A DNA stretch of 13,167 nucleotides from an uncultured Desulfovibrio sp. (lineage in GTDB: Bacteria > Desulfobacterota > Desulfovibrionia > Desulfovibrionales > Desulfovibrionaceae). The notes beneath the pieces were generated by a model. The model was not told the origin of the DNA and did not search any database. It saw only the letters and a list, made by a program, of their open reading frames with translations. The stretch covers positions 1-13,167 of the forward strand of contig CAMBWG010000023.1 in NCBI GenBank assembly GCA_945871415.1, written 5' to 3'. Positions within the stretch are counted from its first letter, which is position 1. Each line of letters starts with the position of its first letter. Shown one piece after another: positions 5,042 through 13,167 of this stretch. Both the position numbers and the translations under genes were made by a program.

Positions 5042-8000
5042 ATGGCAACTAGTATTTCCGGCTCCATATATTTTTCCGGCCTGGACGGAACAGGCAACGA
5101 CTGGGCCCAGACGCTCGAGCAGCTGAAGCAGATCGAATCCATGAACCTCACCCGACTGGAGGCATGGAAGAGCGACTGGAATATCCGGTATCAGGGCTTT
5201 ACCAAGATTATCGAAGCGGTGACCACGGCCCGCACGGAACTGAGCAGCCTCAAGAACCGCAACAGTTTCGTGTCCAAGATGGTTTCCAGCTCCAAGGAAG
5301 AGTTCGTCACCGGCACGGCCACGGCCGACGCCATTGACGCTCAGCACAAGATCAACGTCAAGCAGGTGGCCAACAACGCCGTCTGGGCCAACACCGGCCA
5401 TTTGTTCAAGAACAAGACCGATATCATCAACACCACCGACAAGGATATCGAGTTCAAGTACAACTACGCCGGCAAGGATTACAGCATAACCGTACCGCCG
5501 AACACCACGCTGGACTCGTTCATCAATCTGGTGAACAACAACAAGGAAAATCCCGGCATCAAGGCCAGCCTGATCCAGACCAGCGGCGGTTACTACTTCC
5601 AGATTGCGGGCAAGGATACGGGCGAAGCCAACAGCCTCACCATTGAAAGCTGCGAGCTGCTGGGCTTTGACGATTCCGGCATCAAGTCCATCTGGGAAAG
5701 CAACGACGGCATCAAGGGCGACGCAACCTTTACCGATCCGTCCAGCATCGCCTATGACTTCGTGCTGCGCGACGGCAAGACCGTCACCATCACCATGGAC
5801 GGGGACAGCACGCTGCAGGAATTCGCAGATCAGGTCAACGCCCGCATCGGCAAGGGCACGGCGGAAATCGACCCGACGACCGGCGACCTCAAGTTCAAGA
5901 ACGTACAGGCCGTCATCCGGCGCGATGCTGAAAATACCGACAAGGATAATCAGTATCAGGCCGAATATGTGCGCGTCGAGGCGGGCGACTATAATGAGAT
6001 CAATGAAGGCTACCTGATCGGCAAGGACGACAAGTCCACCGTCACCTTCACAATCAAGATGAAGGACGGTTCCACGCGCACCATCACCATGAGCGGGGGC
6101 GACAAGAAGAAGGACTTCATCACCAAGATTGCCGCCGCCACGGGCAACGCCGCCAACATGGTTCTGGACGAGGACGGCAAGTACTATCTGAAGCTCAACG
6201 GCGTGAAGGAAATTACTTCCTCTGTGGACGGCGGCGGCTCTCTGCCGGGCGTCACCTTTACTCACGAGGATGAAAAGCTGCCCAAGGACGATCTCTATAG
6301 CCAGCTGACGACCAAGGGTGAAAATTACAAGCTGACCATGTCCTTTAACAAGGACAAGCTGGACAAGGCCATTTCCGACTCCGATCCCGATCTGCAGAAG
6401 GAATACATGATCGTCATGGAAGACGGGACGGCCAAGACCTTCACCCTGAGCGGCAACGCCACCTACCGGGATCTGCTGGAGAAGCTGAAGACATACCCGG
6501 ACTTTGCCGAGGATCCCAGCGATCCCAACAAGCTGATCGGCACCGGCGTGATGAGCGTGACCCTCATCGCGGGCGCGGACCCCGGTACGGGCTACACCAA
6601 GGAACTGACCTGCGAGAACACAATTGCTTTCGGGACCATGACCAACGCCACGCCTCCCAGCGACGGCAGCGGGACGCACTATGATCAGGCCGCTCTGGAA
6701 ACGCCGCCGGATCTGGAATATACCTACAAGGGCAACGACGGTACGGAAGAAACGTTCACGCTTGCCAGCGGTTCCAGCATCACGGACGTTATCAAGGAGC
6801 TGAAGAACAAGGGCGTGAATGCGGAAGTAGTTTACAAGGACTCCAATGGCGATGAGCAGACTATTTCAATCGCCGATATCGCCAGCGGCACGAAGACTCT
6901 TGATCCTGATACCGAATACACGCTCCGCATTCATGACGGCGTGCTGTCCGGCCCCGGTGTGAGCGGTCAGGTCGTCCAGTCCGACAACTGGAGCATCCAG
7001 AAGGCCTGCAACGCCATTTACAACGTGGACAACTGGCCTATGGACCTGGAGTCCGACAGCAACACGATCACCGGCGTCATCGAGGGCGTGACCTTCAACC
7101 TGCATGACGTGGGCGAAGCCCGTCTGACCATTGCCACGGACGCCAATTCCGTGCAGGAAAGCATCCAGACCTTCATCGACACGGTCAACAACGTGCTGGC
7201 GACGGTCATTGCCTTTACCAAGTTTGACGAAAACGCCGAAACCACGACCAACGACCCGGATCATAAGACGGACAGCAATTACAGCATGTCCCAGCTGACC
7301 AGCCAGAAGGGCGGCATCCTGCAGGGTAACTACGGCGTGCAGCTCTTTGACTCGCGCTTTACCTCCGTTCTGACCGGCGTGCCCGCCGGTTTCAAGAACA
7401 TGGAAGACAAGGACGATCCCCTGTCCGGCGACTGGGTGGCCAACCTGGCGAACCTCGGCATCAAGGTCTGCTCGGACGAAACCAGCGAAAATTACGGTCT
7501 GCTCATGATCGGCGCGCCTTCGGCCATCAGCGGCATGACCACCATGGACCAGGAGAACTACACGGAGATGCTCTCCGAGCATCTGGATTCCGTCATTGAC
7601 TTCTTCTGCGGGCCGTCCACGCCGGGCACAAGCGACACCTCCAATTTCCGCTATGCCAGCAGTCTTGACGGCATCACCAAGGCCGGCACCTATGATGTTA
7701 CCTATACCGTCGATAATGACGGCAACATCACCGACGTGTACATCGGCGGCGAACGGGCGACCAACGACTCCACCATGGGCAGCAACTACTTCTCCGTTGC
7801 TTCCGGCGATGCCAAGGGTACGGCTATTTATATCGACAATCTGGAACCCGGCACCCATACCGGCACCCTGCGCATCAAGACCGGCCTGATCGACACCGTC
7901 GATCAGTTCATGAAGGCCGAACTGACCTACGTGGATACCGGCGACAGCATCAACGACGACTCCATCGCCCTCAAGGCCCAGAACGGCGGCTTGATGATCC

Positions 8001-8191
8001 TTCAGGCCAACTACCTTGATATTATGGAGAGCATTGACGCCAAGATTGAACGGGAGCAGGATCGACTCGCGACATGGGAACAGCACCAGAAGGACAAGTT
8101 CGCCCGCCTGCAGACCCTGCTGTCCCAGTACTCCAATACGCAGGCGCAGCTGCAAAGCCAGCTGAGCCAGCTGAGCGGCAGCAGCAGCTAG
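5042..8191 (+). CDS. fliD: Flagellar hook-associated protein 2 (filament cap), long form with repeated flagellin-IN-like motifs
   Basis: FliD forms the cap at the filament tip under which exported flagellin folds. The N-terminal domain is typical: GSIYFSGLDGTGNDW then a coiled-coil-prone helix (LEQLKQIESMNLTRLEAWK, ~25-43) and a heptad-like region to ~80. The C-terminal FliD domain spans ~650-1049 (VQESIQTFIDTVNNVLA ~703-719, then DIMESIDAKIEREQDRLATW near the end) and closes with a Gln/Leu coiled-coil tail. The 1049-aa length is far above the common 400-700. The excess is a middle region (~135-615) with five diverged copies of a unit 'DGxxxTFTLxxxxTLxDFIxxLN' at about 139-199, 239-289, 336-391, 455-509 and 560-610, resembling the Pfam flagellin hook IN motif. 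The start is fixed by GGAG 8 bases upstream. Followed by fliS; preceded by a sigma-54-like promoter. Long open frames on the opposite strand are compositional shadows. Confidence 0.93.
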   Translation: MATSISGSIYFSGLDGTGNDWAQTLEQLKQIESMNLTRLEAWKSDWNIRYQGFTKIIEAVTTARTELSSLKNRNSFVSKMVSSSKEEFVTGTATADAIDAQHKINVKQVANNAVWANTGHLFKNKTDIINTTDKDIEFKYNYAGKDYSITVPPNTTLDSFINLVNNNKENPGIKASLIQTSGGYYFQIAGKDTGEANSLTIESCELLGFDDSGIKSIWESNDGIKGDATFTDPSSIAYDFVLRDGKTVTITMDGDSTLQEFADQVNARIGKGTAEIDPTTGDLKFKNVQAVIRRDAENTDKDNQYQAEYVRVEAGDYNEINEGYLIGKDDKSTVTFTIKMKDGSTRTITMSGGDKKKDFITKIAAATGNAANMVLDEDGKYYLKLNGVKEITSSVDGGGSLPGVTFTHEDEKLPKDDLYSQLTTKGENYKLTMSFNKDKLDKAISDSDPDLQKEYMIVMEDGTAKTFTLSGNATYRDLLEKLKTYPDFAEDPSDPNKLIGTGVMSVTLIAGADPGTGYTKELTCENTIAFGTMTNATPPSDGSGTHYDQAALETPPDLEYTYKGNDGTEETFTLASGSSITDVIKELKNKGVNAEVVYKDSNGDEQTISIADIASGTKTLDPDTEYTLRIHDGVLSGPGVSGQVVQSDNWSIQKACNAIYNVDNWPMDLESDSNTITGVIEGVTFNLHDVGEARLTIATDANSVQESIQTFIDTVNNVLATVIAFTKFDENAETTTNDPDHKTDSNYSMSQLTSQKGGILQGNYGVQLFDSRFTSVLTGVPAGFKNMEDKDDPLSGDWVANLANLGIKVCSDETSENYGLLMIGAPSAISGMTTMDQENYTEMLSEHLDSVIDFFCGPSTPGTSDTSNFRYASSLDGITKAGTYDVTYTVDNDGNITDVYIGGERATNDSTMGSNYFSVASGDAKGTAIYIDNLEPGTHTGTLRIKTGLIDTVDQFMKAELTYVDTGDSINDDSIALKAQNGGLMILQANYLDIMESIDAKIEREQDRLATWEQHQKDKFARLQTLLSQYSNTQAQLQSQLSQLSGSSS

Positions 8192-8345: not shown

Positions 8346-9020
8346 ATGAATAACAAAGCGGCGCAGGCCTATATTCAGACCAAGGTCGGCACCACGGATC
8401 AGGGCCAGTTGTTGCTGCTGCTCTACGACGGCGCACTTCGGTTCCTGCAGCAGGCCCGGGAAAAAATGCTGGCCAAGGACTATGCCGGCAAGGGGCTGTA
8501 TATCTCCAAGGCGCTGGACATCATCGGCGAGCTGTCCAGCTCCCTCAATATGGAAAAAGGCGGCGAGCTCGCCACCAATTTGAACAACCTCTACTTTCTG
8601 TGCATGGCACGGCTGCTGGACGCCAACCTTAAAATGAATGTGGAGCGGCTGGACAGCGTGTGCGAGATCCTTTCCGGTCTGCGCAGCGCTTATGCCCAGA
8701 TTATTGATACGCCCGAAGCCCGGCAGGCGGCCGAACAGATTGTACGTAATCGTCCGGCGGAAGCCGGAGCCATACGGCGCGCCCCCCTTGCCCCCACAGC
8801 CTCCATGCCCGGGGTCAAGCCCGGCGCCAGCAGGGCGCAGGCCAGCATGGCCTACGGCAAAAGCGCCGGAGCCTTTGCCAATCCCCTGACCTCCGTGGAA
8901 GGGCAGACTGCCGCGGGGCCGACGGTTGCCCCCGCGGCCGCGCAGAATCTGGAAGCGGCGCAGGCGAGCGGCAGCTCACAGATGCGTCGCGTGGCCAACG
9001 CCTACGGCAAGGGGTCTTAG
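8346..9020 (+). CDS. fliS: Flagellin-specific export chaperone FliS with a long Ala/Pro-rich C-terminal tail
   Basis: FliS binds the C-terminus of cytoplasmic flagellin, keeps it unpolymerised and delivers it to the flagellar export gate. Residues 1-~122 are a standard FliS four-helix domain: AAQAYIQTKVGTTDQGQLL, LLYDGALRFLQQA (26-38), GGELATNLNNLY (72-83) and ARLLDANLKMNVERLD (88-103). The usual protein is ~120-145 aa; this one is 224. The extra tail (~125-224) is low-complexity, rich in Ala, Pro, Gly and Ser, and probably disordered, with an AYGK motif twice (169-172 and 219-222). The start has AAGGA 9 bases upstream. The stop TAG (9018-9020) is also the first three bases of a repeat end, so the last residues may have been shaped by an insertion. 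It follows fliD by 154 bp in the same direction. Confidence 0.92.
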   Translation: MNNKAAQAYIQTKVGTTDQGQLLLLLYDGALRFLQQAREKMLAKDYAGKGLYISKALDIIGELSSSLNMEKGGELATNLNNLYFLCMARLLDANLKMNVERLDSVCEILSGLRSAYAQIIDTPEARQAAEQIVRNRPAEAGAIRRAPLAPTASMPGVKPGASRAQASMAYGKSAGAFANPLTSVEGQTAAGPTVAPAAAQNLEAAQASGSSQMRRVANAYGKGS

Positions 9021-9175
9021 AGCATTTTTAGAGCCTTTTCAGCTTGAAACGCGTTGCATTTCAAACCATACGGCCTGTCGTTTCGCGGAAAAAACGCGGT
9101 TTTTCCGCCCCCTTTGGGCCGTGCGGCGTTGTGCCGCCGCCTCGCGTTTCATCTTTTCAAAGTTGAAACGCTCTA
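9018..9175 (+). repeat. Interspersed palindromic repeat, copy A (full length, + orientation)
   Basis: Full element at 9029-9175 (147 bp) with ends TAGAGCC and CGCTCTA, preceded by an 11-bp near-duplicate of its own end (TAGAGCATTTT at 9018-9028, TAGAGCCTTTT at 9029-9039, 10 of 11 identical). Inner inverted repeats: GAAACGCG (9046-9053) with CGCGTTTC (9143-9150), and GCGGAAAAA (9085-9093) with TTTTTCCGC (9100-9108). The core CCATACGGCCTGTCGTTT begins at 9066. Bases 9029-9115 match the reverse complement of copy B in 77 of 87 ungapped positions by hand count. It begins at the fliS stop codon. Confidence 0.85.
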
Positions 9176-9339
9176 GCGCACGCGCGCTTTGCCCGCGTTG
9201 CGGATAAGCATTCCGCAACAGTACGGCACTTTTCCGAACGCAGGCGCGGCAGATAAATCCCCGGCCGCCCGCGTTCCGTACTCTATCGCCATTCCGTGCC
9301 GTGTGCAGGGCCGGGGCGATGACAAGAAGGAGGCGTCCC
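9176..9339 (+). other. Leader region of the 123-aa gene, no gene seen
   Basis: This stretch between repeat A and the small gene holds no convincing frame. I looked for -35/-10, sigma-28 and sigma-54 patterns and found no good match. It ends in a strong ribosome site, AAGGAGG at about 9327-9333, close to the ATG at 9340. Confidence 0.5.
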
Positions 9340-9711
9340 ATGAGCAGCGACGTCAGTTTCACGCTTTGCAGCGGCAGCTACCTGTCAGAAAAGGCCAATA
9401 CCTTTGACAACAGCTGGCTTTCTTCCACCCGCTCGGACTTCAAGCGTCTCTATCCTGAAGACGAGGAAGGCAGCAGTACCAGTCAGACGGGCAGAAAGGA
9501 CCTTGACTTTCTGTACAAGGACGCGGGCGAGGTAAAGGAGCGCAAGCCTGTTCCCCGCTTCCGCATCAATGCGACGGTCGAGCCGGAAGAAGCCGCCGAG
9601 GAAAAGAAGATTGTCACTCCCGGCGAACTGACCTTTGACAGCCTTTTTGGCGATGACGGGCTGATTTACAGCAACGCCAAGAAGGGCACTTCGCTGGATA
9701 CGACCGCTTAA
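9340..9711 (+). CDS. Unrecognised acidic 123-aa protein downstream of fliS
   Basis: I do not recognise this protein. It is soluble, with no signal peptide or membrane segment. Visible parts are an N-terminal Ser/Asn-rich segment (SSDVSFTLCSGSYLSEK) with its only Cys, an acidic run PEDEEGSS (~38-45), a mixed helix-like part FLYKDAGEVKERKP (~58-71), an EPEEAAEEKK cluster (~80-89) and a C-terminal segment LTFDSLFGDDGLIYSN (~95-110) that could be a short binding motif. The start at 9340 is preferred over 9301 because AAGGAGG lies directly upstream, and the extra 13 residues of the longer form are Arg-rich and overlap that site. It follows fliS in the same direction and is bracketed by inverted repeats A and B; its TAA stop forms the end of B. 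A flagellar accessory role is possible from position only. Confidence 0.7.
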   Translation: MSSDVSFTLCSGSYLSEKANTFDNSWLSSTRSDFKRLYPEDEEGSSTSQTGRKDLDFLYKDAGEVKERKPVPRFRINATVEPEEAAEEKKIVTPGELTFDSLFGDDGLIYSNAKKGTSLDTTA

Positions 9712-9858
9712 GGCGTTTTGCCCTTGAAAAGGGCGGAACGCGAAGCGGCAGCACAGCGCCGTCCGCGGCCAAAAGGGGGTGGAAAAACTGCGCTTTTTCC
9801 GCAAAACGACAGGCCGTATGGTGTGAAACGCACAGCGGTTCAAACTGAAAAGGCTCTA
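9709..9858 (-). repeat. Interspersed palindromic repeat, copy B (full length, - orientation)
   Basis: Inverted copy of the same ~150-bp element. Read on the minus strand from 9858 it starts TAGAGCCTTTTCAG, passes the core at 9822-9794 and a GGAAAAA/TTTTTCC hairpin (9781-9787 with 9794-9800, loop of six), and ends at TTA (9711-9709). Its inner end, TAAGGCGTTTT on the plus strand, begins exactly with the stop codon of the 123-aa gene. Both ends carry TA next to a GAGCC/AGGCG-like sequence. Confidence 0.85.
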
Positions 9859-9867
9859 CAATATAAA
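9839..9867 (+). promoter_or_regulatory. Candidate sigma-70 promoter at the outer end of repeat B
   Basis: TTCAAA (9839-9844) and TATAAA (9862-9867) are separated by exactly 17 bases. The -10 fits TATAAT at 5 of 6 positions and the -35 fits TTGACA at 4 of 6. The -35 and most of the spacer belong to repeat B; the -10 lies just outside it. It points at the RlmM-like gene, with a leader of ~120 nt. Not tested. Confidence 0.45.
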
Positions 9868-9994
9868 GCCTTTCACCCTGTGCGCCAGATTGCCGCCACA
9901 TCTTCCGCCCGCGGGCAGCCGCCACCCTCTGCGGCCGCTCAAGGGCGGAGACAACTTCCTTTCTTTTCTCCGACGCAGATTCCCGGATGAGTCA

Positions 9995-11113
9995 ATGAAG
10001 CAGCGAAAGGCCTTTTCTTCCGCAGGCATCGACCGCGTGTCCGACATGCCGGGCACACGCGGCCATAAAGGCCCTCAGGGCAACCGGGCGCGGCATGCCG
10101 CGCGTTCGGCCATGCGTCCCGCAGTGAGGGAACAGGCCCCTTCGCCCTTCTGGGAAACAGCCCCGCCGGATCTCGAACCTGCCCGTCTGCCGGAAGAAAA
10201 TTTCAGCGTTCAGATTGCCGCGCGCCATTACGTCCGCCCATTGCTGGAGGAACTGGGTTCCCGCGTGCTGGGGGCGCGTGGCCGACTTGTGCTGGCGCGC
10301 GGTTTCGCGCCGGCCGCCTGGGCGCAGAATGTCTGGCTTCAGCCCCTCTGGCTGCCCATTGCCTCCATTGGCAACGCAGCGCGCCAGCTGACGGCTCTCC
10401 AACGCAACTGGCGCGCGCATGTGCCGCCGACCGGCGTGGAGCCCGGCTTTCGTCGTCGCCTTGCGCTCATTGGCGAGCGCCTGCCCCACGTCGGGACCCG
10501 TCCCCTTGCTTTCGGCAGTCCGATGCCGACCGCCCCTCTCGGTGCCTTCACCCTCTGGCGCGACGATCTTCTGCTGGCATCACCGCGCACAACCTCCGCC
10601 TTTGCCGACGGCGAACTGCTGTTTCAGGAAAACCGCGACGATCCGCCGGGGCGCGCCTACCTGAAGCTCTGGGAAACCTTCACCCTGCTGGGGCGCCAGC
10701 CGCAACCCGGCGAACTCTGCGTCGATCTCGGCGCCGCACCCGGCGGCTGGACGTGGGTACTGGCCTCGCTCGGCTGTCGTGTTTTCAGCATCGACAAAGC
10801 CCCGCTCGATCCCCGTGTACAGCACATGCCGAAAGTCAATCACTGCATCGGCAGCGGCTTTGCTCTTGATCCCAGAAGTACGGGTCCCGTGGACTGGCTC
10901 TTTTCCGATATGATTTGCTATCCCGAAAAGCTGCTGGACACCGTCCTTCGCTGGCTGGAAGCCGGCGCCTGCCGCAATATCGTCTGTACCCTCAAATTCC
11001 AGTCCGAAACCGATCACGAAACAGCCCGACGTTTTGCCGCCATCCCCGGCGGCAGCCTCCGCCACCTCTCCTGCAACAAGCATGAACTGACCTTTGTCCG
11101 CCTTGCGGACTAG
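9995..11113 (+). CDS. RlmM-like rRNA 2'-O-methyltransferase (RrmJ/FtsJ fold)
   Basis: SAM-dependent ribose methyltransferase; the closest known family is RlmM, which methylates C2498 of 23S rRNA. Landmarks in the 372-aa form: PGRAYLKLWE with catalytic-type K224, VDLGAAPGGWTW (243-254, SAM motif I), FSIDKAPLDP (264-273, motif II), VDWLFSDMICYPEK with D305, CTLKF with K334 and KHELTFVRL with E364. These give the K-D-K-E tetrad of the RrmJ/RlmM group. The N-terminal ~70 residues are basic and low-complexity; the following ~150 correspond to the place of the RlmM RNA-binding region, but I see no clear THUMP motif. The start is uncertain: ATG 9995 has only a weak GGATGA site, the longer reading begins with TTG at 9890, and ATG 10046 is possible. 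The E. coli RlmM length (366) fits 9995. Flanked by repeats B and C. Confidence 0.82.
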   Translation: MKQRKAFSSAGIDRVSDMPGTRGHKGPQGNRARHAARSAMRPAVREQAPSPFWETAPPDLEPARLPEENFSVQIAARHYVRPLLEELGSRVLGARGRLVLARGFAPAAWAQNVWLQPLWLPIASIGNAARQLTALQRNWRAHVPPTGVEPGFRRRLALIGERLPHVGTRPLAFGSPMPTAPLGAFTLWRDDLLLASPRTTSAFADGELLFQENRDDPPGRAYLKLWETFTLLGRQPQPGELCVDLGAAPGGWTWVLASLGCRVFSIDKAPLDPRVQHMPKVNHCIGSGFALDPRSTGPVDWLFSDMICYPEKLLDTVLRWLEAGACRNIVCTLKFQSETDHETARRFAAIPGGSLRHLSCNKHELTFVRLAD

Positions 11114-11159
11114 GGAGAGCTAACGCCAGATCGTTCTTCCGGGGGAATCCCCTTGGCTG

Positions 11160-11197
11160 GCGCACAAGGGGCGTTTCCTTCCCCGACGCGCTTTTTT
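11160..11197 (+). terminator. Candidate intrinsic terminator of the RlmM-like gene
   Basis: GCGC (11160-11163) pairs with GCGC (11188-11191), and inside it GGGG (11168-11171) pairs with CCCC (11181-11184); a six-T run follows directly (11192-11197). The stem has an internal loop, so it is not ideal. A second nested hairpin, GGGG-GAAT-CCCC inside GCCAG/CTGGC, sits just upstream (about 11124-11161). Confidence 0.5.
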
Positions 11198-11231
11198 CCA
11201 ACGGATGCAGGAACATACGGCAGTCTTCTTT

Positions 11232-11289
11232 TAGAGCATTTTCAGTTTGAAACACTGCTCATTCCACACCATACGGCTTGTCGTTTCGC
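11232..11289 (+). repeat. Interspersed palindromic repeat, copy C (outer half only, + orientation)
   Basis: Begins TAGAGCATTTTCAGTTTGAA and includes the core CCATACGGCTTGTCGTTTCGC (to 11289), then likeness to the other copies stops. A degraded remnant may continue past 11300 (GCAAAAAACAGC), but the GGAAAAA/TTTTTCC hairpin is lost. It appears to be a decayed or truncated member of the family. Confidence 0.7.
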
Positions 11290-11327
11290 TGGCCGCACTC
11301 CGACTGCAAAAAACAGCTTCCTCTGCT

Positions 11328-11381
11328 AAAAACATAAGAGGGAACGACGCGTTACGGCTTCCGCCCGCAAAGGTCGTTCCC
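11328..11381 (-). terminator. Candidate terminator of the transporter gene
   Basis: Read on the minus strand, GGGAACGAC (11381-11373) and GTCGTTCCC (11348-11340) form a perfect 9-bp stem with a 24-base loop. A TTTTT run follows after about 7 bases (11332-11328). The long loop and gap before the T-run make it imperfect. It is ~90 bp past the transporter stop. Confidence 0.4.
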
Positions 11382-11472
11382 CCGCATGTCTCCGGTATGC
11401 GACATTGCTTTGTCGCAGTCCAAGGTTAAGGCCTAAAGGAAAACATAATTCTGATTATGAGATTTATTTTCA

Positions 11473-12933
11473 TTAGTAGAGGAGACTGCCGAGCGTGCCG
11501 GTAACGAGCGCCGTGGCCGCATAAGCTCCAAGGATGGCTATGGGAGCGGTCTTCCAGATGACGGCGGTATTTGACCACTCGTTGCCGTGGAGCAGCGCGG
11601 CACTTGCGCTTGCAGCGGGCGTCAGGAAGGCGAAATGCACGCCCATGACAACCATAATCAGAGGCAGGGCGGGCTCCATGCCCGAAGCCTGACAAAAACT
11701 GTGAATGACGGGCATAAGGACGACGCCGACGGCGCCGTTATTCATAATCTGCGTCAGCAGCACGGCGGCCATCCCGATACACAAAGCAAAGATCATCTGC
11801 GAACTTTCCCCGAAAAGGGGCATGATCAACTGCATGAGAAAGGCGGTGATACCGCTGTCTTCTCTGGCCATGCCGATGGTGAGCGGCTGGACAAAGGCAA
11901 GCAGCAGCACAATGCCCCACGTCACGCCGGAATCGACCATAACCTTGAAGTTGAGCAGCGCCTTGCCGTCAACCTTGATGGCGCACATGACGGTCACCAG
12001 CAGAATGACGATACCGGTATTGCCTATGGCTTTGAGAAGACGGGTCAGAAGCAGATCGGCGGGAAGGAAGTTGGGAGCCAGCAGCAAGCCTACCAGCAGG
12101 AACAAAAAGACAAGAATGGTCTTCTGTCTGCCGTCGAGTTGCAGAGCGCCGTCCTTGTCGAGTTCTTCCGCCTTGAGAGCCAGCAGTTTGCTCATGTCGG
12201 GCCGGAAGACATACTTGCCCATGACAATGAAGAACAGGGCGCACCCCACACAGATTAAAGTGGCGACAAGCATATACCGGGCGTAGTCTATGCCAGTGCC
12301 GGACAGCGTCTCATAGGCGCTGAACACCGTCAGCGCCACCTGTTTGAAAGGAATGATGGATTGTCCGATCTGGGCGGCAAAAACGATGCCGAAAACCATC
12401 ATGGTCGGATAGCCTTCACCCTTCCTGTAACCGCAAATCTCGCAGACGCCATACAGGATGCTCCAGCCTATCAGTGCCGCCGGGGATGCGCTGGTCAGAG
12501 CGCCAAGGATGAAAATGGACGAAAGGAAGGTAAAGGTAAAAAGCCACGGTCTGCCGGCAACACATTTGCGGGTGATGAACCAGAGAGAAATGAATTTGGA
12601 CAAACCGTAATGATTGATGGTCGCACAGAAGACGAAGATAAAGAACATCATCTGCACAATAGGATGCCCGAAACTGTTGTTCAGCAACTGCACGGGCGTC
12701 ATGCCGCCTACAAGCATCATGGCCAGCAGTCCGGCCAGGCTCGGCCAGACAATCTCTATAAGAATCCAGCCATAAAGAACGCCTAAAAAGATGCCCGCAA
12801 GGCGCATGCCGAGATCTGTCAACGGGGCTACAGGTTCCAGCAGTCCGAAGCCGAACATAATGGCAAGACAGATCACGCTGTGCAGGACGTACGATGCGGA
12901 TACGGGCAGAGATATCGCCTTGGCTGTCGTCAT
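11473..12933 (-). CDS. DASS/SLC13-like (ion transporter superfamily) anion permease
   Basis: Polytopic inner-membrane protein of 486 aa, a normal size for divalent anion:Na+ symporters and related ArsB/NhaD/CitM carriers. It has roughly 11-13 hydrophobic segments in two halves, split by a charged cytoplasmic loop (~243-268, RPDMSKLLALKAEELDKDG). Each half has a small-residue re-entrant-loop-like motif where SNT-type ion/substrate sites sit in the family: ALTSASPAALIGW (~145-157) and QIMNNGAVGVVLMP (~395-408), followed by FLTPAASASAALLHGNEW (~436-453). Canonical SNTA and TPxGTPPN signatures are not exact, so the substrate (dicarboxylate, sulfonate or other anion) cannot be named. ATG 12933 is chosen over the upstream ATG 12984 because AGGA lies ~10 bases upstream and residues then start a normal cytoplasmic N-terminus. 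Monocistronic, convergent with the RlmM-like gene, bracketed by repeats C and D. Confidence 0.8.
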   Translation of the reverse strand: MTTAKAISLPVSASYVLHSVICLAIMFGFGLLEPVAPLTDLGMRLAGIFLGVLYGWILIEIVWPSLAGLLAMMLVGGMTPVQLLNNSFGHPIVQMMFFIFVFCATINHYGLSKFISLWFITRKCVAGRPWLFTFTFLSSIFILGALTSASPAALIGWSILYGVCEICGYRKGEGYPTMMVFGIVFAAQIGQSIIPFKQVALTVFSAYETLSGTGIDYARYMLVATLICVGCALFFIVMGKYVFRPDMSKLLALKAEELDKDGALQLDGRQKTILVFLFLLVGLLLAPNFLPADLLLTRLLKAIGNTGIVILLVTVMCAIKVDGKALLNFKVMVDSGVTWGIVLLLAFVQPLTIGMAREDSGITAFLMQLIMPLFGESSQMIFALCIGMAAVLLTQIMNNGAVGVVLMPVIHSFCQASGMEPALPLIMVVMGVHFAFLTPAASASAALLHGNEWSNTAVIWKTAPIAILGAYAATALVTGTLGSLLY

Positions 12934-13032
12934 AGAATTTCTATCCTGAAAATTGCGGGTTACGGATGTGCATTCACCGGGCACATAAGAGGAAAGGAAA
13001 CAGCGCGTCGTGAAAGACCTCCCCTTCTCCGG
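12934..13032 (-). promoter_or_regulatory. Upstream region of the transporter gene
   Basis: About 100 bp between the transporter start and repeat D. It should contain the leader and possibly the promoter, but I see no convincing -35/-10 or -24/-12 pair. No gene seen. Confidence 0.35.
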
Positions 13033-13167
13033 CAGCGCGTTTTGCCATTGAAAAAGGCACAGACGAGGCGGGGCACCGCGCCACCCGGTCTGTCGTTTCG
13101 CGGAAAAACCGAGCTTTTTCCGCGAAACGACAGGCCGTATGGTTTGTGAAACGCACAGCGTTTCAAA
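13033..13167 (-). repeat. Interspersed palindromic repeat, copy D (- orientation, cut by the window end)
   Basis: Inner end CAGCGCGTTTTGCC starts near 13033; the outer TAGAGC end would lie just past base 13167. It has the best-preserved hairpin of the family: arms 13090-13108 and 13115-13133 are perfectly complementary over 19 bp with loop CCGAGC, and pairing continues to 13086/13137 with one G-T position. The core appears in both arms, once complete (13115-13142 on the minus strand) and once as TGTCGTTTCGCGG (13091-13103), so this copy is nearly a true palindrome. Confidence 0.8.

Follow-up and report, generated by a model that had tools for sequence, protein, structure and literature searches.

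Contig CAMBWG010000023.1 of an uncultured Desulfovibrio sp., 13,167 nucleotides long and analysed here as one whole contig (C23, hereafter the window), carries a series of related palindromic repeats between the genes of its right-hand part, which raises the question of what these repeats are and how they came to lie there. An initial annotation made from the sequence alone had described them as one family present at four places and none left of 9.0 kb, and had proposed miniature inverted-repeat transposable elements (MITEs) moved by an IS630/mariner-type transposase, with an origin like that of REP/BIME palindromes as the alternative. All four places match a profile of the family, and no profile match occurs in the window left of 9.0 kb. 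Taken together, the evidence makes it highly probable that the repeats are a non-autonomous MITE of about 148 bp, which is mobilised by an IS630-family transposase, inserts at YTAR sites and re-forms the stop codons that it enters.

The family profile (model length 148) was built from 35 copies. The source genome comprises 2.56 Mb in 435 contigs and is 79% complete; profile matches were counted in the window and 60 further contigs, i.e., 780,332 bases in 61 stretches. In this sample 239 non-redundant matches (261 raw), copies or fragments, were found, 110 of them full length and the whole making up 3.5% of the bases, and the reversed sequence of the same sample gave 1 raw match. Across the source genome the 14-mer core of the element occurred 353 times with at most one mismatch, compared to 2 occurrences of the reversed pattern, and copy A of the window, used as a query, found at least 45 matches (best 40 of 619 candidates scored). 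Further copies with shared ends and sharp boundaries are thus abundant, as expected from the initial annotation. The two nearest relatives, G072 and G012, are 89% and 88% identical to the source genome over a 1.4-kb comparison. Their samples gave 105 profile matches in 400 kb (G072, 3.2% of bases) and 83 in 262 kb (G012, 3.3%), the latter density being possibly biased upward as the G012 stretches were chosen from contigs already listed with core matches. Compared with the consensus, full copies had a median identity of 87% in the source genome, 92% in G072 and 90% in G012, indicating that the source copies are the most decayed.

Full copies are bounded as TA-GAGC...GCTC-TA. When copies were aligned at their edges, unrelated flanking sequence gave way abruptly to TAGAGCATTTTCAGTTTGAAA, an interior of about 105 bp and TTTCAAAGTTGAAACGCTCTA, followed again by unrelated flank; this was seen with 35 and with 50 aligned copies, the latter drawn from 64 copies sampled for end analysis. 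The inverted ends are imperfect and extend over about 21 bp. The element therefore has the terminal inverted repeats with precise boundaries that are typical of MITEs, occurs in multiple copies and is too short to hold a transposase gene.

A partner insertion sequence (IS) was found through searches with PF13358. Both G072 and G012 carry an IS630-family IS, of 993 and 995 bp, respectively, which are 90.5% identical to each other and have the ends TAGAGCAATTCAACTTTGA(A/G)A and TAGAGCGTTTCA(A/C)CTTTGAAA. The right end of the MITE consensus is identical to the G072 and G012 IS at 21/21 and 20/21 bases, and its left 31 bases are 81% and 77% identical to the right end of the IS. The interiors of IS and MITE gave no significant match. 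TA lies at both outer ends of the IS copies (L214 and L215), as in the IS630 family. In G072 the transposase is encoded by a single frame of 326 amino acids, which scores 192.9 bits against the NCBIfam IS630 model NF033545 (cut-off 100); the DDE_3 domain (PF13358) of the partner transposase scores 116 bits (cut-off 28.6). The frame of the G012 copy is split in two, and further pieces of the IS at 78-92% identity lie elsewhere in that genome. A matching IS end with a matching 39-residue protein tail was also found at a contig edge of another genome (G067). Related autonomous elements with the same ends thus exist in two relatives, and their matching ends and unrelated interior identify the repeat as an IS630-linked MITE, supporting the type of mover that the initial annotation had proposed. 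A protein search with the transposase scored 7998 candidates, of which 2138 matched at E 1e-40; the 120 matches listed reached up to 59% identity at a query coverage of at least 90% and included one piece of 201 amino acids with 94% identity over 47% of the query. Inward-facing pairs of the ends, looked for in the source contigs and in public loci, were scattered at distances of 400-3500 bp, and none was established as a transposon.

Comparison with relatives revealed empty sites, among them three at which filling was accompanied by an exact 2-bp duplication. TA is duplicated at L039 6152 (filled) relative to L136 of the source genome (empty), and at L238 11683 of G072 relative to L147 of the source genome. 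At the third site the source copy L177 4453 is flanked by TG..TG and the empty site in G012 (L260) reads TG, which shows that TG can serve as a target. Further sites fit a duplication with one decayed end, e.g., source L187 7920 compared to L076 and source L133 5612 compared to L114. Sites were classed as filled or empty only where both flanks aligned. Of the 110 full source copies, 18 could be classed in G072 (9 filled, 8 empty, 1 unclear) and 11 in G012 (6 filled, 4 empty, 1 unclear), indicating that many insertions differ between close species.

The insertion sites share a motif. Among isolated intergenic full copies outside stop codons, YTAR was present at 41/66 in the source genome, 26/39 in G072 and 12/20 in G012, as compared to 10-13% of free intergenic TAs (300/3009, 300/2336 and 125/1073, respectively), an enrichment with p values of 6e-24, 2e-14 and 5e-7. 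Copies abutting another copy were left out of this test (8/108, 7/58 and 3/33); the source total of 108 excludes two full copies too close to a contig end for end analysis. YTAR is rare in coding DNA (297/12,504 coding TAs in the source genome). The statement of the initial annotation that all copies lie between genes largely holds, 3/108 full source copies lying within a predicted gene (2/110 in an earlier count).

A considerable part of the copies forms the end of a gene. In 34/108 full copies of the source genome, 12/58 of G072 and 10/33 of G012, a predicted stop codon falls exactly on the first three bases of the element. An earlier count in the source genome placed 33 of 111 element-facing gene 3' ends at offset -3 and 9 others between -10 and +10. 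These 33 stop codons consist of 27 TAG, i.e., TA plus the G of the element, and 6 TAA, in which this G is changed. In a relative, 13 of the 33 sites were comparable: 7 were empty and read TAA or TAG, copy B of the window being among them and one of the seven resting on only 72% identity, 3 were occupied, and 3 were unaligned at the junction. Special targeting of stop codons is not needed in the source genome once YTAR is taken into account, as YTAR stops were occupied as often as other non-coding YTAR sites (19/155 and 41/341, p 1.0); in G012 the figures were 7/55 and 12/137 (p 0.43). Target choice therefore largely explains the pattern in the source genome, and this simple rule largely accounts for genes that end in the transposon's own TAG. 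Most simply, copies enter stop codons through target preference and do no harm there because the stop is restored. With 8-16% of the counted non-coding YTAR sites filled and 3.2-3.5% of the sampled sequence of three species occupied, the family is a considerable burden by the standards of bacterial MITEs. As a separate observation, predicted genes end most often in TAG in the source contigs (244/600, at a genomic G+C content of 60%) and in the samples of G072 (116/294) and G012 (80/192), and the element ends explain only part of this prevalence.

The proposed sequence of events would be as follows. An IS630-family transposase, acting in trans, may recognise the shared ends (about GAGCrTTTcAryTTTGAAA) and join the element to a YTAR site, whereby the central TA, or occasionally another pyrimidine-purine pair, would be duplicated. 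Copies would accumulate in non-coding DNA, as coding sequence offers few YTAR sites and insertions into it would be harmful and probably lost. TAA and TAG stop codons that follow a pyrimidine are YTAR sites, and as both ends of the element start with TA-G, an insertion into such a stop would return an in-frame TAG and leave the protein unchanged.

Several observations weigh against this interpretation. In the source genome, at 79% completeness, neither the partner IS nor any match to the G072 IS630 transposase at E 1e-10 was found, and five other genomes carrying the core (G009, G066, G068, G069 and G071) also had no transposase match at this threshold. TA at both ends, a feature given in the initial annotation, applies to copy A and to two of the duplications described above; among the full copies of the source genome it was found in only 30/108, and in the samples of G072 and G012 in 35/58 and 16/33. 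Most frequent among the remaining end pairs are those with TG, CA or CG, and where the ends are not TA, the left and right dinucleotides usually differ, suggesting decay; that all non-TA ends are true alternative duplications was therefore rejected. Two empty source sites (L130 and L138) read CA where the filled site is TA..TA, reflecting decay or else a target other than TA. All gene ends were predicted by our own hexamer-based caller. Finally, YTAR stops of G072 were more often occupied than other non-coding YTAR sites (11/67 and 26/326, p 0.039), which goes beyond target choice alone. This roughly twofold occupancy leaves room for an advantage of the stop position; the source genome and G012 do not show the excess.

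Three other explanations were weighed against a MITE mobilised by an IS630-family transposase. An origin as extragenic palindromes of the REP/BIME type, dispersed by a RAYT (Y1 tyrosine) transposase, is barely conceivable: the element is intergenic, palindromic and present in hundreds of copies, and one Y1_Tnp (PF01797) frame of 144 amino acids occurs in G012, but PF01797 was unmatched in the source genome and in the 99%-complete G072, and a length of about 148 bp, inverted ends and a 2-bp duplication are unlike the short GTAG-headed REPs listed in Table 1 of PMC2817692, as far as this table describes them. It also appears very improbable that another TA-targeting transposase moves the MITE and that the ends shared with the IS630-family IS reflect coincidence or old inheritance. 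The lack of a close IS in the source assembly and several carriers would fit this view; however, IS and MITE have 21/21 end bases and the same placement of TA in common, the IS-free carriers may hold relics, and metagenome-assembled genomes lose repeats. In addition, transposases of the IS4/IS5 type were rejected as movers, as neither PF01609 nor PF13586 had a match in the source genome.

The third alternative, that the copies are mainly functional RNA or DNA hairpins maintained by selection, e.g., as modules of 3' untranslated regions (UTRs), rather than selfish elements, draws on the frequent placement at stop codons and on the folding of the repeat, and is quite unlikely. In RNA folding, one strand forms several arms closed by a 6-bp outer stem. 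A near-consensus copy folds at -71 and -74 kcal/mol on its two strands (z -7.4 and -7.5), and copy A at -61 and -62 kcal/mol (z -6.2 and -5.1). In an alignment of 50 copies, 90.8% of the cells of the folded-copy structure hold standard pairs, and changes on both sides were found in 19/53 pairs (62 cells, compared to 24.3 in shuffled and 17-24 in slid controls). However, 42 of these 62 cells come from only three pairs, as a few subfamilies would give, and the RNAalifold consensus is modest (-13.8 kcal/mol, 21 pairs). The central hairpin is extended to a near-perfect palindrome at 6 places among the 186 core matches of the source sample, copy D included, and at none of the 94 and 57 cores in the G072 and G012 samples; these palindromes apparently arose from arm-to-arm copying of the hairpin. 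As a few subfamilies or such copying could yield coupled changes, these alone do not demonstrate an RNA function. Moreover, the diverged copy B of the window now folds only weakly (z -1.0 and -2.0), presence of the element differs between close species at many sites, and Rfam gave no match at gathering score in the window. A combined version, in which the MITE colonises the ends of translation silently by re-forming TAG and the inserted hairpins then serve as common 3' UTR modules that are kept base-paired by selection and shape mRNA ends in these gut Desulfovibrio, may be entertained but is likewise unlikely.

The distribution of the MITE family is patchy. Of 79 genomes from the genus, 11 contain the exact 14-mer core, with 1 to 381 copies each and the largest number in G072. 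A 15-mer was found in 21 of the 288 genomes belonging to the taxonomic family, across three genera, and is present at least twice in 15. Among public genome contigs at least 99 stretches contain the core, all those listed being titled Desulfovibrio, Desulfovibrionaceae or Mailhella. This pattern suggests horizontal arrival and separate bursts of the family. Carriage by phage or plasmid was rejected, as no record of the phage and plasmid collections searched matches the element. The family also breaks assemblies and can mislead the annotation of gene ends: of the 122 ends of the 61 source stretches, 20 fall inside a copy or no more than 10 bp from one (3 of the 122 being artificial 20-kb cuts).

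The kind of element is already known. IS630-family elements, which are Tc1/mariner-like, have TA outside their ends, and IS630 itself uses a CTAG target. The partner IS shares this placement of TA and a DDE_3 transposase; the MITE differs in having no transposase gene and an unrelated interior. ERIC and Correia/NEMIS elements are intergenic, palindromic, MITE-like repeats of 100-160 bp (partly described in PMC2229807). The Desulfovibrio repeats resemble them in these respects, differ in their hosts, and are likened to them by description only. The nearest precedent is RUP with IS630-Spn1: RUP is non-autonomous, about 100 bp long, resembles an IS630-family IS of its host in its ends and uses TA-containing targets; its intergenic copies number about a hundred or more (PMC2229807 and PMC3049150), their density being highest at 50-150 bp from genes (PMC3049150). 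The likeness is again one of description and not of sequence; the host is different, as presumably is the sequence, and the Desulfovibrio family is denser, follows the YTAR rule and is frequently placed at stop codons. Repeats that supply stop codons are known from the BOX elements of pneumococcus, copies of which form the end of 36 annotated genes according to the available text of PMC3049150. BOX elements, however, are modular, larger as composites and linked there to ISSpn2 rather than to IS630, and no target rule for stop codons appears in that text. No description of the Desulfovibrio family was found in the open-access literature searched, most subscription journals lying outside this scope, in agreement with the initial annotation, which did not recognise a described family; the terms "Desulfo", "IS630" and "stop codon" are all absent from the main text of a review on prokaryotic MITEs published in 2024. 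We file the family as a new one of an established type, in which target motif and stop codons are connected with unusual clarity. Because its partner IS can be seen, its sites can be compared among close relatives and its target rule is simple, it is a good natural system for measuring how target preference and selection jointly place insertions.

Table 1. Copies and parts of the MITE family in the window.
Feature	Positions	Strand	Description
End fragment	9018..9028	+	11 bp, TAGAGCATTTT, directly before copy A
Copy A	9029..9175	+	Full element TA...TA; profile 1-148, 158.8 bits; absent from L192 (G012)
Copy B	9709..9858	-	Full element; profile 1-148, 134.5 bits
Copy C	11232..11291	+	Left part of element only; profile 1-60, 44.7 bits
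Copy D	13033..13167	-	Profile 15-147 (match 13034-13167), 94.2 bits; left end lost at contig end

The copies of the window reflect these features (Table 1). The boundaries drawn in the initial annotation stand for copy B; copy A had included the end fragment, copy C is truncated, and in copy D the central hairpin is lengthened to a near-perfect palindrome (13088-13135). A fifth profile row at 13081-13140 is this palindrome read on the opposite strand and no extra copy. Copy D has CA as its right-end dinucleotide. The similarity of copies A and B, initially counted by hand as 77 of 87 positions in the outer half, amounts to 82.6% identity over 149 columns and 88% over a gap-free stretch of 96 nt. 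No tandem repeats were found. The gene at 9340-9711 terminates in the TAA (9709-9711) that forms the right end of copy B; the site of this copy is empty in G012 (L192), where the stop reads TAG, and filled in G072 (L193). Similarly, the TAG at 9018-9020 within the end fragment is the stop codon of a fliS-like gene, with which a TAA is aligned in G012. The arrangement of an end fragment directly followed by a full copy (GAGCRTTTT-TAGAGC) occurred twice in the source sample, here and at about 4366-4376 of L177, and was not found in the G072 or G012 samples.

Further observations concern neighbouring genes and other IS630-family proteins. The FliS-like flagellar protein is encoded at 8346-9020, its FliS domain spanning only residues 7-119 of 224, and a long FliD-like flagellar protein of 1049 amino acids at 5042-8191. 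The single IS630-like gene of the source genome (L190, 964-1743, plus strand) was rejected as a mover, being shortened and with no such pair of ends seen within its 1854-bp locus. As predicted from sequence, its product and the orthologs in G072 (L217) and G012 (L218), of 259-260 amino acids, possess a helix-turn-helix and part of DDE_3 and terminate with ...RRFLPPRAL, short of the position of the third acidic residue. The gene apparently adjoins a sigma-54-activator-like gene in three species, its pN/pS is 0.21 between G072 and G012, and the protein looks like a domesticated transposase. Other IS630-family copies, with transposases about 50-54% identical, occur in G064 (L216/L271 and L219) and G025 (L272 and L288); their ends are related, following the pattern TAGAGCAATTTGACTTT or TAGAGCATTTTGCTTTT, and they may have MITEs of their own.

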